Shown here piece by piece: positions 2,834-11,429 of a DNA stretch of 33,886 bases (the first letter of the stretch is position 1; each line of letters begins with the position of its first letter). The notes beneath the pieces were generated by a model. That model was given only the letters and a program-made list of their open reading frames with translations. It had not been told where the DNA came from and did no database searches. Position numbers and translations under genes: made by a program. The stretch comes from a virus, in the IMG/VR virus record IMGVR_UViG_3300006736_004257, positions 1 to 33,886 of that record; one strand, written 5' to 3'.

Positions 2834-2905
2834 AACTAACAAGTCGCGCAAGTTGCTGTCGCTCGGACCCGCAAAAAGCGCGGGCCGCTTCGCTCAGGGT
2901 TAAGC
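2834..2905 (+). other. attC site 4
   Basis: R'' AACTAAC at 2834-2840, spacer of 5, L'' GCG(C)AAG at 2846-2852 with C2849 unpaired. The inner stem is CCCGC with GCGGG around an A-rich loop (2868-2884). L' CTTCGC is at 2888-2893, spacer of 5, and R' GTTAAGC at 2899-2905, a full GTTRRRY match. The CTCGGACC... interior resembles attC sites of environmental integrons. The stop of the Lar-like gene (2900-2902) is in R'. Confidence 0.92.
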
Positions 2906-3148
2906 GGCTATTCGTTTATTCCAGGCTTCCGCAGCGTCAACCTTGGTTGCCCGGTAAAAGCCCTCTGGCGGCATATACATTGGGCACTCCGGTTCGTCTT
3001 GCCCATCACCGCCGTTGGCGCACATAACCACTTTCTGGTAATACTCTGGCGTTGGTTCGTACTCCCACATTTCTGCGGCATATCCGCAAAAAGGGCAACG
3101 CTCCAGCCGGTCATCCCACCCATCAATTTTTCTGTACATTTCATGCAT
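2900..3148 (-). CDS. Lar-like restriction-alleviation family protein, cassette gene
   Basis: An 82-aa protein with the layout of the Lar_restr_allev/Lar-like zinc-finger family. It has CPFCG at 18-22, a hydrophobic MWEYEP segment, a second cysteine cluster (VVMCANGG... EPECPMY) at about 42-57, and the terminal AAEAWNKR that is nearly diagnostic for the family. Rac prophage Lar modulates type I restriction (EcoK) in favour of modification, so this cassette may help the phage evade host restriction. Many members remain untested. GGAG eight bases before the ATG at 3148 supports the start. Its TAA is formed by attC 4 R'. It is cassette 5 of the array. Confidence 0.8.
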   Translation of the reverse strand: MHEMYRKIDGWDDRLERCPFCGYAAEMWEYEPTPEYYQKVVMCANGGDGQDEPECPMYMPPEGFYRATKVDAAEAWNKRIAA

Positions 3149-3243: not shown

Positions 3244-3438
3244 GTTATACCCATGATGGGCGTACCACTCTGCGCGGGTACCAGCGAATACGGTTTCTGA
3301 CTTCCCACACTTACAGCAAGTGCGCATATCGTGATGCGTTTTTTTCCCAACACTTAATATCAGCTGGCCTTCCCAGAGATGCCGACAGAAAAGACTGATA
3401 ACAAACCGGTCAACGCGACTCATTACGCCTGGCTTCAT
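3241..3438 (-). CDS. Small Cys-rich cassette protein of unknown function
   Basis: A 65-aa basic protein, not recognised. The C-terminal third has CCKCGK (about 41-46) followed by WYAHHGYN, whose Cys and His residues could make a small zinc site. The GGAGGT preceding the ATG at 3438 and the first ~14 codons lie inside attC 6, so recombination-site DNA doubles as ribosome-binding site and coding sequence. A start five codons later (3423) is possible. The TGA stop overlaps the R' box of attC 5. Cassette 6, the shortest of the array. Confidence 0.6.
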   Translation of the reverse strand: MKPGVMSRVDRFVISLFCRHLWEGQLILSVGKKTHHDMRTCCKCGKSETVFAGTRAEWYAHHGYN

Positions 3439-3462
3439 TCGCTCGTTACCTCCGGGTTATGG
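3396..3462 (+). other. attC site 6 (rightmost)
   Basis: R'' TGATAAC at 3396-3402, spacer of 5, L'' GGT(C)AACG at 3408-3415 with C3411 unpaired, L' CGTTACC at 3444-3450, spacer of 5, R' GTTATGG at 3456-3462. L boxes and R' resemble attC 2. It contains the Shine-Dalgarno and start of the 65-aa gene and abuts the stop of the next gene (3465). Confidence 0.85.
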
Positions 3463-3464
3463 CG

Positions 3465-3803
3465 CTAATCCCATTTTTTCCGGTTAGCAATTTTCCATAT
3501 CTGACCGGTAAGCTCTAACAGCATTAAGCTGCCAACGTGTTCCTGGAGGTGGGTAAAAATATCCCGCCGTGATTGCTCCAGCTTTTCAAGCTCTGCAACC
3601 GGAACTGCAACATAACCATCCGGTGATAGGTCCAGTGCAATCTGGCGTACTTTTACAGCCAGGTGTTTCTCGTGGCTGTAGGTTTTCAGTGTTTCCGGGC
3701 AATCGATTATTCCCGTGCTTGGTATGCTGTGGCTCTCTTTTAAAGCCTCTGCTTGGCTGTCAATGTAGTCAGCCACTTCAATCAAAATTGTTTTTGTGTC
3801 CAT
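3465..3803 (-). CDS. Conserved-looking small phage protein, unknown function
   Basis: A 112-aa protein, not recognised. It is mostly helical with a Lys/Glu/Gln-rich C-terminal half (VAELEKLEQSRRDIFTHLQEHVG). The start at 3803 is chosen over the upstream ATG at 3833, which overlaps the previous stop, because GGAG lies five bases before it. Its TAG is three bases from the R' box of attC 6 and shares the end sequence of the 65-aa cassette gene at 2337. It may be a former cassette gene whose own attC has been lost; no attC is seen upstream at 3804-3830. It follows the cupin-like gene by about 26 bases in the leftward operon. Confidence 0.6.
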   Translation of the reverse strand: MDTKTILIEVADYIDSQAEALKESHSIPSTGIIDCPETLKTYSHEKHLAVKVRQIALDLSPDGYVAVPVAELEKLEQSRRDIFTHLQEHVGSLMLLELTGQIWKIANRKKWD

Positions 3804-3829
3804 AACGACTCCAGAGTTTGTCGGGGTGT

Positions 3830-4282
3830 TCATCTGTCCGGCCGGGTGCCACAGTACCGCCACCAGTCCCGTGCGCTTGTTGCTACGCGCTCCTCGGATC
3901 CATCGGTGTTGATGAAGCTCCAAAAAGGGAACCGCCTCGGCCCGACAATCATCAGGGTCCAGGTTTCTGGTTTGATCCAGCCTATCCGGTGAGTTCGGGT
4001 GCGGCCGATAATCGCGGGCATACCCAAAGGGCGGCGCGATCGGGTGGTCAGGTTTTGGCCAGAGAGCAGGTGCTCGGTGTAGCGTCCAGCGAGCACAATG
4101 CTTAGGGCCCGCCATGGGTGGTTGTGGTGGTGCCGGTCTCCATCGGCGGACAGAAAACGGTGAAGCCAGAACTGGACCCCGGCAAGAGAGCCCAGATAGT
4201 AGCGCTGCAGGTAGGGTTGTCCCTGGACATCAATCTGCTTCATGGGCTTGTTGCGAGTCATTTTGATAAGACATTTTCTCAT
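3830..4282 (-). CDS. Cupin-like phage protein
   Basis: About 150 aa. A beta-rich body has HHHNHPW followed about 8 residues later by a strand ending LAGRYTEHLL and a later THRIGWI-x-TWTLMIVG. This arrangement is seen in small phage proteins of the cupin/double-stranded beta-helix type, in which the His cluster would bind a metal. Substrate unknown. The frame is open to 4420. The ATG at 4282 is taken because GGAG lies ten bases upstream; ATGs at 4261 and 4243 (MKQIDVQGQPYLQRYYLG) are plausible and have weaker ribosome-binding sites. It overlaps the gene upstream by about 50 bases. Early-operon location only; role unknown. Confidence 0.6.
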   Translation of the reverse strand: MRKCLIKMTRNKPMKQIDVQGQPYLQRYYLGSLAGVQFWLHRFLSADGDRHHHNHPWRALSIVLAGRYTEHLLSGQNLTTRSRRPLGMPAIIGRTRTHRIGWIKPETWTLMIVGPRRFPFWSFINTDGSEERVATSARDWWRYCGTRPDR

Positions 4283-4502
4283 TCTGGGTTGGCTCCATGT
4301 TTTTAAGTTGCTCGTATCCCGGTAGCTCCCCGTCCAGGAATCGCTGGATGTCTTTTGGTTTGTGGCGGTGGCAGAAGTGGTGCGGCGCAGCCGCTGGCTG
4401 GCCAATGCAGGACCAGCCACAAAGGTCGCAGAAGATCCACGGCTCCCAGTATTTGACGGTTCCCTTCATGGGGATGTGCAAAATCCACTCGCCGGTGTTC
4501 AT
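4230..4502 (-). CDS. Small putative zinc-binding phage protein
   Basis: A 90-aa protein, not recognised. A Cys/His cluster (FCDLCGWSC then HHFCHRH, about residues 26-50) looks like a zinc finger, followed by KPKDIQRFLDGELPGYEQL, which is common in hypothetical phage proteins. The ATG at 4502 overlaps the stop of the preceding gene as ATGA and follows a G-rich Shine-Dalgarno (GGGGGGAG), so the two are translationally coupled. The long open frame upstream (to 4646) is read-through of the neighbouring gene's other frame. Confidence 0.6.
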   Translation of the reverse strand: MNTGEWILHIPMKGTVKYWEPWIFCDLCGWSCIGQPAAAPHHFCHRHKPKDIQRFLDGELPGYEQLKNMEPTQNEKMSYQNDSQQAHEAD

Positions 4503-9519: not shown

Positions 9520-9594
9520 AAATGCGTTCATGTTGGGTTGATTATGCACACAAAAACGATCATTGCAAGAGGTTGTGCATACAAATGAGTTCAT
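9520..9594. promoter_or_regulatory. Repressor operator array (three related sites)
   Basis: Three related 12-mers occur at regular intervals: AAATGCGTTCAT at 9520-9531, AAAAACGATCAT at 9552-9563 and AAATGAGTTCAT at 9583-9594. Start-to-start distances are 32 and 31 bp, about three helical turns. The third is embedded in the near-palindrome AATGA-GT-TCATT and covers the repressor start codon (9585). The second lies within the leftward promoter. The flanks of sites two and three also match (TATGCACAC and TGTGCATAC). Probably bound by the XRE repressor, the gp16-like protein, or both. Confidence 0.6.
9541..9568 (-). promoter_or_regulatory. Leftward early promoter
   Basis: On the minus strand, TTGCAA (complement of 9563-9568) and CATAAT (complement of 9541-9546) are separated by 16 bases, a fair sigma-70 promoter with 4/6 and 5/6 matches. 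Transcription would start near 9534, 30 bases ahead of the gp16-like ATG. Operator site two (9552-9563) fills its spacer, which fits direct repression. Confidence 0.55.
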
Positions 9595-9929
9595 TGGGCG
9601 ATAGGCTTCGCAGCGAACGAGAAAGGCTAGGTTTAAACCAGGAGGATTTTGGTCGGGTCGGGGGCGTAAATAGAAATAGTCAGGCGAACTATGAAAAGGG
9701 GGCTAGAAGCCCTGACTCGTCATATTTGGCCGCGATCGCCGCCGCAGGTGTCGACGTGTTGTATGTGTTGACTGGGGACAGGACCCCCCAGCCAGAGCAA
9801 GCGCTGAGCGTCAGAGAGCAATCAGTTGTCTACAATTTCCGGGTCCTTTCGGAGGCAGATAAAGCTGCAATACAGCGTCTCTCTGGTGCGCTGGCGCAAT
9901 CGCCCGACGACGAGCTGAACGAGGGCTGA
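9585..9929 (+). CDS. XRE-family phage repressor (CI-like)
   Basis: A 114-aa protein. The helix-turn-helix domain (about 4-60) reads LGDRLRSERERLGLNQEDFGRVGG, NRNSQANYEKGARSPDSSYLAAIAAAGVDVLYVLTG, the XRE pattern typical of short prophage repressors. The remainder is a helical oligomerisation tail without a LexA/UmuD-type protease domain, so RecA-triggered self-cleavage is not expected. The frame is open from 9522, but the protein pattern begins at the ATG at 9585, which overlaps operator site three. This would allow autorepression, including at translation-start DNA. Divergent from the early operon. It would maintain lysogeny. Confidence 0.88.
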   Translation: MSSLGDRLRSERERLGLNQEDFGRVGGVNRNSQANYEKGARSPDSSYLAAIAAAGVDVLYVLTGDRTPQPEQALSVREQSVVYNFRVLSEADKAAIQRLSGALAQSPDDELNEG

Positions 9930-10209
9930 TATTTTATTATTGTCGGCCGACTCTTTAGCCGAAGCCGCGCCAGCTCTGCTTTTGCGGCAGATTTTCACAT
10001 TGATGTGACACGGTAAATCACCGCCAAACCCTTCGCCTGGCGAAACCATAAAACGCTCTAAACCCCTGTGGCTGCGGGGCTTTCAGCGTTACACTGATTT
10101 CAGCTCCCAAATTTTTGCCGTTTTCCGCAGGCGTTGGGAGGAGTGACCGGCCGGCCTCGGGTGGCCGCGATTTTTGATTTTGTCTGTTGTCCTTGAGGGG
10201 GGTCAGTTG
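9930..10209. other. Intergenic region between repressor and moron
   Basis: About 280 bases without a convincing gene. It holds an inverted repeat CTCCCAA (10104-10110) with TTGGGAG (10134-10140), a GC-rich stem with T-run at 10152-10175, and CCCC...GGGG around 10069-10080. Minus-strand frames here have no ribosome-binding site and look like noise. No promoter for the downstream gene was recognised with confidence. Confidence 0.5.
10152..10175 (+). terminator. Possible rho-independent terminator after repressor
   Basis: CGGCC (10152-10156), loop TCGGGT, GGCCG (10163-10167), followed by CGATTTTT. The five-base GC stem is short, so confidence is moderate. It would end the repressor transcript and insulate the next gene. 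Confidence 0.45.
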
Positions 10210-10719
10210 ATGTCTATAACAAGCTGTAAAGAATGTGGCGTGGATGTATCAAAAAAAGCTAAAGCATGCCCGGCGTGCGGCGTAAAAAAACCAGGGCTCA
10301 CCTGGAAAGATACCGCCATGGGTCTGGCTTTCTTTTTTGTGTTGGTCGGAGTGGTAAGTCTGTTTTTTGGTTCTGACGACAAGGAAGATACTGGCTCTGC
10401 TGAGCGGGAATGGTATTCAGGCGGGACTCTACACCAGGAGAATGGCTTGGCCTGGCAGACCGCATCGGAAGAGAACCGTTTGGCGACCTGCGCCGACATT
10501 GTTTATGCAATGCACGATAAGGGTATTTTTAAAAGTAGTATCAGCGACAACATAGCGGTTGTTGATGATCTCAAGCCGTATGCAACAGAGCTGAAAAACG
10601 CACTAGATACGGCATTCGAGAAGAAGCCGAACCAAGAAGAAAACAAAAATCTGTACACGAACCAGCTGGTGAGCGAGACGGCGGTAATGCTGTCAACGCT
10701 GATGGGGTGGCTGGAGTAG
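10210..10719 (+). CDS. Zinc-ribbon plus membrane-anchored protein (moron candidate)
   Basis: A 169-aa protein. The N-terminal zinc ribbon has CKEC (6-9) and CPAC (20-23) spaced by a Lys-rich loop, followed by one transmembrane helix at about 36-54 (AMGLAFFFVLVGVVSLFF) and a polar, helical 115-residue domain. Topology and function cannot be read further. The frame opens at 10174 but a G-run Shine-Dalgarno precedes the ATG at 10210. It is transcribed rightward in an otherwise leftward stretch, between repressor and late operon. It is visibly richer in A/T codons (Lys/Asn-rich C-terminal part) than its neighbours. That is the classic position and look of a lysogenic-conversion gene expressed from the prophage. 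It converges with the baseplate spike gene, with only about 11 bases between stops. Confidence 0.7.
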   Translation: MSITSCKECGVDVSKKAKACPACGVKKPGLTWKDTAMGLAFFFVLVGVVSLFFGSDDKEDTGSAEREWYSGGTLHQENGLAWQTASEENRLATCADIVYAMHDKGIFKSSISDNIAVVDDLKPYATELKNALDTAFEKKPNQEENKNLYTNQLVSETAVMLSTLMGWLE

Positions 10720-10730
10720 AGGCATTTTTG

Positions 10731-11429
10731 TTATTCCGTCATTGGGTCCAGTGAAGACTTGAGCCCACCAACCGCGCCACTCGCGCCGGTAAATGTTCCC
10801 GCGTTGGTTGGTCCGCTGCCGCCGTGGTTGTGTGCCGCTGCGGCGTTGGCGATGGTGATGACTTCGCCCATGAGATCCGACAGCAGCTGCAGCACGTTGT
10901 CCGCTTCGTTGCCCACCCAAACTTTGCCACCGTCCTCGACTTTCAGCCGCTGCCGGGTGGTGGCCAGTCGGTCGGCGATGGCCTGGCAGCGCTCGGTGAT
11001 GTTGTCGTCCTCATCGATGCGGTAGTAGTTGTCCGCGTCCCGCGCCAGCAGCACGTCATCCGCGCCCAGTGCGGGCAGGGTGCAGCCCTGCACGAGAATC
11101 GTCCGGATGAAAGGCTTGTCCGGATTGCCCAGGATAAACCCCAGCTCCACCAGCGCCCCTACCTTTGGATACACAAAAACCCCGCGCTGCTCACCGGATC
11201 CGGTGGCGGGCAGTGGTATCTTGTCGAATACCGGCACAGCCGTGTCGGGCTTGCCCTGGTTGTTAAGCACCTGCACATCCACGCAGTAGGCCGGGGCCTT
11301 GCTGGTCGATACGGCCGCTTCACCTATCGGGTAAACTTTCTCCACCCGACCCCACTGGGGCAGGTGCAGGCGGGCGGTCAGCTCGGGAAACAGGCGACGC
11401 ACAATGCGGCGAATCGTTTGCTCTAGCAT
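10731..11429 (-). CDS. V: Baseplate spike / assembly protein V (gp45-type)
   Basis: A 232-aa protein with an N-terminal helix, an OB-fold region (about 20-125: GRVEKVYPIG, VPVFDKIPLPATGSG, GVFVYPKVGALVELGFILGNPDKPFI) typical of phage baseplate assembly protein V/Mu gp45 spikes, and a C-terminal repeat-poor tail with AAAHNHGGSGPTNAG, the His-rich tip motif of such spikes. It would form the membrane-piercing trimer under the tail tube. In P2 gene V is upstream of W-J-I; here it is the last gene of the late operon, after the fibre cluster. It starts one base beyond the hub gene's stop. Confidence 0.85.
   Translation of the reverse strand: MLEQTIRRIVRRLFPELTARLHLPQWGRVEKVYPIGEAAVSTSKAPAYCVDVQVLNNQGKPDTAVPVFDKIPLPATGSGEQRGVFVYPKVGALVELGFILGNPDKPFIRTILVQGCTLPALGADDVLLARDADNYYRIDEDDNITERCQAIADRLATTRQRLKVEDGGKVWVGNEADNVLQLLSDLMGEVITIANAAAAHNHGGSGPTNAGTFTGASGAVGGLKSSLDPMTE

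Follow-up and report, generated by a model that had tools for sequence, protein, structure and literature searches.

A phrog_23065 protein encoded behind the repressor of a P2-like phage is a candidate membrane-tethered periplasmic exclusion protein

The window analyzed here is a virus record of 33,886 bases with P2-like gene content. An integrase gene at its left end (1-1248) is followed by a primase gene, the repressor region, the tail genes, which form a leftward operon that includes the tape measure gene, and the terminase and portal genes. The gene under study lies behind the repressor gene, on the far side from the integrase, and ends 11 bp from the baseplate gene, the tail operon being on the opposite strand (Table 1). 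The initial annotation had described an isolated rightward gene with lower-GC codons between these two neighbors and had proposed it as a moron. Both points are borne out: the open reading frame is in that place, and its GC content of 48.8% is the lowest among the 37 called genes longer than 250 bp in the window (median, 59.4%). The odd composition, the repressor neighbor, and the rarity of the gene (around Pseudomonas abyssi, G001, matches in 2/369 class genomes and 3/298 family genomes; around Yersinia aleksiciae, G002, in 2/295 family genomes; center genome included each time) fit an accessory gene of the moron type. The gap upstream of the gene has no promoter-like site on the plus strand, and it is no more structured than shuffled sequences (z 0.24). 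No Rfam family reached its gathering score in the window. Close to the integrase, the minus strand carries an endolysin/peptidase-like gene (phrog_894, 1500-1862) and a Lar-like restriction alleviation gene (phrog_599, 2900-3148).

Table 1. Features around the gene under study (window coordinates)
Feature	Position	Strand	Evidence or remark
Repressor-like helix-turn-helix (HTH) gene, upstream	9522..9929	+	phrog_8, E 2.9e-16
Gap of 280 bp, repressor gene to gene under study	9930..10209		One terminator-like hairpin, 10148-10167 (+)
Gene for 169-aa protein (ribbon, helix, presumed periplasmic domain)	10210..10719	+	ORF from ATG 10210 to TAG 10719; relatives
Four-cysteine zinc ribbon, residues 6-23	10225..10278	+	Sub-threshold Pfam matches, motif rarity, N-terminal-only matches elsewhere
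Single membrane helix, residues 36-54	10315..10371	+	Hydropathy; acidic stretch next
All-helical domain phrog_23065, presumed periplasmic	10393..10716	+	E 3.5e-35; AlphaFold2 mean pLDDT 94.3
Convergent baseplate gene, closes the accessory slot	10731..11429	-	phrog_4011, E 1.7e-61

The protein has the three parts that were first described, a zinc ribbon, one membrane helix, and a C-terminal soluble part. Cysteines 6, 9, 20, and 23 form a CxxC-x10-CxxC ribbon, and a motif of the type CxxC-x(8-20)-CxxC arose in 7 cases when the protein sequence was shuffled 20,000 times. The highest hydropathy over 19 residues was 2.41, a value matched in 3 of 2,000 shuffles. Searches of Pfam and NCBIfam gave ribbon matches below threshold and nothing else; no Pfam zinc-ribbon family exceeded its curated cut-off, the best being Zn_Ribbon_1 (18.4 bits for a cut-off of 25). 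The succession of ribbon, helix, and domain is also found in four relatives (L027, L028, L029, and L037), which argues that this is a true gene and not a chance reading frame. The acidic stretch that follows the helix is consistent with the N-in/C-out topology that we infer from the sequence, and the ribbon is presumed to be on the cytosolic side.

The conserved element of the protein is its 107-aa C-terminal domain. Residues 62-168 align to positions 26-132 of the 134 in the profile of phrog_23065, a family annotated in PHROGs as of "unknown function" and of which our search of the mostly open-access literature found no description. The domain is thus a member of this family, to which the protein adds the ribbon and the helix. 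The N-terminal stretch of 55-65 residues matches phrog_38187, phrog_14275, and phrog_10292; as the profiles of these three families continue for 136-178 positions that have no counterpart in the protein, the N-terminal module appears to have been shuffled. Among nine records of the phage collection that match the protein, seven do so through the first 28-39 residues only and two, both of phage C5a, through the domain.

To describe the family, we used a simple ORF caller of our own and BLAST to label the genes of the window and 34 loci, 35 sequences in all. Of these, 29 were non-redundant and 23 of the 29, the window included, were phage or prophage loci carrying the domain. They comprise group A (12 enterobacterial-type loci: L006-L012, L014, L015, L020, L024, and L026), group B (6: the window, L016, L027, L028, L029, and L037), group C (3 Pseudoalteromonas-type loci: L017-L019), and two loci outside the groups (L036 and L039). 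Redundant loci were dropped in favor of another copy: L013 (L010, identical protein), L023 and L081 (L020), L025 (L024), L021 (L016), L002 (L019, phage C5a), L080 (L027), and L022 (L004); L001, L030-L035, and L040-L044 repeat short stretches of loci already represented. The non-phage loci outside the 23 are L004, L005, L038, L047, L048, and L049, of which L038, L048, and L049 were recovered solely through the N-terminal motif. Two matches at E of about 0.008 (L045 and L046) were kept outside the count, and a spurious match within a very long ORF (L082) was dropped. A weak match to VirE3 and one of L010 to the connector family phrog_187 (E 0.0023) were taken as chance. A scan of genome contigs reduced 83 candidate stretches to 3 loci, a scan of viral contigs alone with the window protein gave no relative, and a motif-only profile (A5) matched 7/398 phylum genomes at E <= 0.01, two of them weakly.

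The leaders that precede the domain vary and can be a signal peptide, a ribbon with a helix, or several helices. In all 12 group A proteins the N terminus resembles a signal peptide, and an A-x-A pattern lies no more than 4 residues ahead of a conserved W; this pattern is a crude test and is also positive in L016, L027, and L029, which have no signal peptide. Phage C5a has, by eye, three hydrophobic helices ahead of the domain, and the protein of a Pseudoalteromonas plasmid (L005) has what we take, by eye, to be a lipobox. Such varied leaders on one domain are easiest to understand if the periplasm is where the domain functions and the leader just delivers it. Hence, the domain of the window protein very probably faces the periplasm, judging from these sequences. 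The "soluble domain" of the initial annotation is indeed present, and the emphasis shifts to it as the conserved core of the protein, most likely periplasmic. The weight that had been given to the zinc ribbon was misplaced: of the 23 phage loci, just 5 (the window and the four relatives of the same layout) have the full ribbon and helix. In one further protein, present in two redundant loci (L016:7155-7679 and L021:5800-6324), the helix and the C-terminal domain are intact and the ribbon retains a single one of its four cysteines. The ribbon is most likely a replaceable N-terminal anchor module, which has decayed once among the relatives.

Some relatives lie outside phages. The Yersinia massiliensis copy, in a plasmid and a genome record (L004:8025-8318 and L022:6022-6315), is found amid IS6 transposase genes; its frame has no ATG, GTG, or TTG ahead of the domain, and the signal-peptide-like stretch persists. 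Divergent relatives resembling secreted proteins or lipoproteins (L047:7613-7939, L048:6594-7019, L049:6864-7325, and L038:6593-7003) come from contigs in which no phage gene is evident, a possible sign of a host origin of the domain.

The position of the gene is a recurrent trait of the family. In 18 of the 23 phage loci, including all of groups A and B, the domain gene is on the same strand as the repressor gene and is the first or second gene after it, although the loci are akin to each other and such counts do not represent independent events. It follows the repressor gene directly in 12 of the 18 and comes after one gene for a 212-214 aa protein in 6, disregarding a 109-aa antisense ORF in the gap of L016 and a 49-aa ORF in that of L028. 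In six loci (L007, L008, L010, L011, L012, and L026) the repressor and domain genes overlap by 4 bp. The integrase gene is downstream in all 12 group A loci, which we call P2-like because of the replication gene seen in some of them. Phage backbones vary among the loci, in that the replication gene of L006 (phrog_91 type, from a cluster common to loci of groups A and C) is different from the primase gene of L016 and the window. The remaining five loci do not follow the pattern: the domain gene is convergent to the repressor gene in the three group C loci, separated from it by 4 kb of other genes in L036, and without a repressor gene in view in the remnant-like L039.

Other genes share this slot. 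The 212-214 aa protein encoded between the repressor and domain genes in six group A loci (e.g., L006:7173-7817, L014:7225-7863, and L020:5221-5865) has, by eye, a hydrophobic C terminus and belongs to phrog_5825 in its L006 copy; the L006 and L014 copies had no defense match. A secreted-looking 175-aa protein is encoded between the domain and integrase genes in L026 (8312-8839) and L015. It is possibly another slot protein, and its L026 copy had no match in PHROG, PADLOC, or Pfam. The slot of L016 and L027 also holds PDC-M53A/B, which are PADLOC candidates, and that of L036 holds KwaA and KwaB (Kiwa), an NgoMIV-type restriction enzyme, and a cytosine methylase. The KwaB of L036 is split across two overlapping open frames (3438-4380, plus strand) between the prophage repressor and the tail genes. 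In phages of the K139/phiO18P type, the interval from cI to the integrase gene has been described as a hotspot for antiviral systems (Rousset 2022, PMC9122126). Pseudomonas phage Fc02 offers a precedent for exclusion genes cotranscribed with the repressor gene, in this case from a position upstream of it (PMC9936078).

The closest known parallel is in Vibrio phage K139, where the gene order is cI-orf2-glo-int with an annotated lysogenic promoter in front and where the annotation of Glo reads "periplasmic protein; involved in phage exclusion." The primary paper on exclusion by Glo is reportedly that of Nesper from 1999. In the literature as far as its text was available, the role of Glo in phage exclusion is cited and the protein is also termed a virulence factor. 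The accessible part of a study of a K139-family phage places lysogen resistance after adsorption and suggests that replication or integration is blocked, not entry, a view that speaks against a block at entry even for Glo. Phages phiO18P and yong1 have Glo-type proteins in the slot between cI and the integrase gene, with N termini that differ from that of Glo: by eye, the domain follows a helix in one and a signal peptide with an extra stretch in the other. A search with a Glo profile gave three viral loci (L086, L087, and L088), of which L087 has the signal-peptide form and looks the same as yong1 and L088 has a form with several helices and no ribbon. These leaders suggest that the Glo family shares the freedom of anchoring of the phrog_23065 family, without a detectable sequence relation. 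A ribbon-helix-Glo fusion was sought with the same profile, which matched 0/369 class genomes, an empty answer that carries no weight in a search that had no positive control.

The resemblance between Glo and the window protein is one of position and type. The Glo-type proteins of these three phages lie, like those of group A, between repressor and integrase genes of P2-like phages; they are small and annotated as periplasmic and exist in secreted and membrane-anchored versions. The window protein differs from Glo in having a ribbon and in the integrase gene being elsewhere. Homology was rejected: at E up to 1 the window protein hit phrog_23065 but no Glo family, Glo matched only phrog_7270, phrog_37565, and phrog_21596 (E up to 0.01), and no alignment between them was convincing. 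In addition, two cysteines are common to the three aligned Glo-type sequences, whereas none is conserved in the phrog_23065 domain. PADLOC had no match for Glo, the phiO18P protein, the two scanned members of the phrog_23065 family, or L015.

Other exclusion proteins can be likened to the window protein by description, within the accessible text of their sources. SieA of P22 is likewise an inner-membrane protein of a prophage and acts on superinfecting phages, but it has three predicted helices in 162 or 164 aa and is reported to block DNA injection via the ejection proteins. Spackle of T4 (gp61.3) is likewise small, helical, periplasmic, and tied to superinfection exclusion. It differs in being made during lytic infection, and the matches obtained here showed no link in sequence or fold.

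These observations lead us to propose that the gene product is a lysogen-expressed, membrane-tethered periplasmic exclusion protein, an analogue of Glo by position and topology from an unrelated family. We put the chances of this whole reading at about even. Carried by a P2-like prophage as an accessory gene, it would be made in the lysogen with or beside the repressor; one helix would hold the product in the inner membrane, leaving the small zinc ribbon in the cytosol and the compact helical domain displayed in the periplasm. There the domain could block the entry of superinfecting phages at the level of the tail tip, the passage through peptidoglycan, or DNA injection, by analogy with the exclusion reported for Glo. 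Expression in the lysogen, which the initial annotation had also considered likely, is firmer than exclusion and is likely by analogy, because the domain and repressor genes share 4 bp in six relatives and the cI-orf2-glo-int order of K139 has its annotated lysogenic promoter. That the protein excludes superinfecting phages is evenly balanced in our judgment, which is drawn from genomic context such as the slot shared with glo and with defense genes. Several results speak against this reading: the lack of detected homology to Glo and of a PADLOC match, the K139-family study cited above, the purifying selection described below, the gap with its hairpin in front of the gene, the integrase gene at the other end of the window, the placement of the gene in group C, L036, and L039, and the divergent relatives in contigs without evident phage genes.

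Selection on the phrog_23065 domain looks purifying rather than diversifying. In group A, dN of the mature domain is well below dS (e.g., 0.008/0.14, 0.029/0.472, and 0.056/0.266). Among 11 pairs that we chose from the 66 in the group, dS could be estimated in 10, where dN/dS is about 0.04-0.2; several distant pairs have dS near or beyond saturation. The signal peptide is less constrained than the mature domain in these pairs. The low ratios support a maintained function and contain no hint that the domain is engaged in an arms race.

The fold gives few clues. Confident, all-helical AlphaFold2 models were obtained for the window domain and L010 (mean pLDDT of 90.1 for the latter); the small alignments behind the two models are almost identical. 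In Foldseek, the first model found nothing at E <= 0.001 in PDB or BFVD, and the second had no significant match in PDB. By sequence, PDB gave one chance-level row, FlhF (E 0.76). None of the fold or sequence matches points to a target for the domain, and we assign it no known fold. The first model did resemble HdeA (1bg8; Z 6.5, rmsd 3.4, 74 residues of a 76-residue chain; next row, 4.0), which raises the alternative of a host-fitness factor of the lysogen, namely an HdeA-type protein, acting as a periplasmic chaperone or in envelope stress, unrelated to exclusion. The relatives in contigs without evident phage genes would agree with such a role. However, there is no HdeA row for the second model (best Z 4.4), the tool itself warns that Z values of this size are frequent for helical folds, and the profile comparison was not significant (PF06411; with an alignment of 9 HdeA sequences, hhalign gave a probability of 0.3%). 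On this mixed evidence we do not count the domain as an HdeA family member, and we consider the host-fitness role unlikely.

The domain could also act like Spackle or Rap1a and inhibit peptidoglycan hydrolases, whether these are tail lysozymes of phages or effectors of bacteria. This would suit a small, helical, and presumably periplasmic domain, and Spackle is, in the accessible text on it, a periplasmic helical bundle that inhibits the tail lysozyme gp5. Yet Rap1a was rejected as a relative (PF18602; hhalign probability 0.2% against a 21-sequence alignment, not significant), with no Rap1a match for four members of alignment A1 at E up to 1. The matches obtained contained no Spackle row, which says little either way, and the available part of one Spackle paper has the T4 titer unchanged when gp61.3 is overexpressed. 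We regard inhibition of hydrolases as still less likely than a host-fitness role. A regulator of lysogeny, whose periplasmic domain senses and whose cytosolic ribbon signals to the repressor encoded upstream, would explain the tight link to the repressor gene and the presumed side of the ribbon. It is improbable, as the signal-peptide forms, which have no cytosolic part, keep the same link and as the ribbon has decayed in L016/L021. A remnant, or a gene read in the lytic cycle only, is suggested by the 11 bp to the tail operon, the 280-bp gap, and the convergent arrangement in three loci, but is just as improbable given the strand opposite to that operon and the low dN/dS of the relatives.

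Returning to the exclusion protein that we favor, its gene would be of a kind already known, that of periplasmic exclusion linked to the repressor, with phrog_23065 as a candidate member. If the proposal is right, this family gains a testable role, inspecting whatever follows the repressor gene in P2-like prophages becomes a way to find periplasmic exclusion proteins missed by the defense database, and zinc ribbons on phage membrane proteins may be swappable anchors instead of the working part. More tentatively, the place after the repressor in P2-like phages might be a plug-in socket for periplasmic exclusion proteins, with unrelated domains, swappable anchors, and a mechanism proper to each; we find this possible but rather doubtful. 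Such a socket would hold at least two unrelated domains, the Glo-type one and phrog_23065, and perhaps a third in Aeromonas phage LPM4. In this phage, three genes lie between the regulator and the integrase gene (L003:2262-4038): two encode small proteins that look secreted by eye, and one, adjoining the integrase gene, encodes a ribbon-helix protein with another C terminus.
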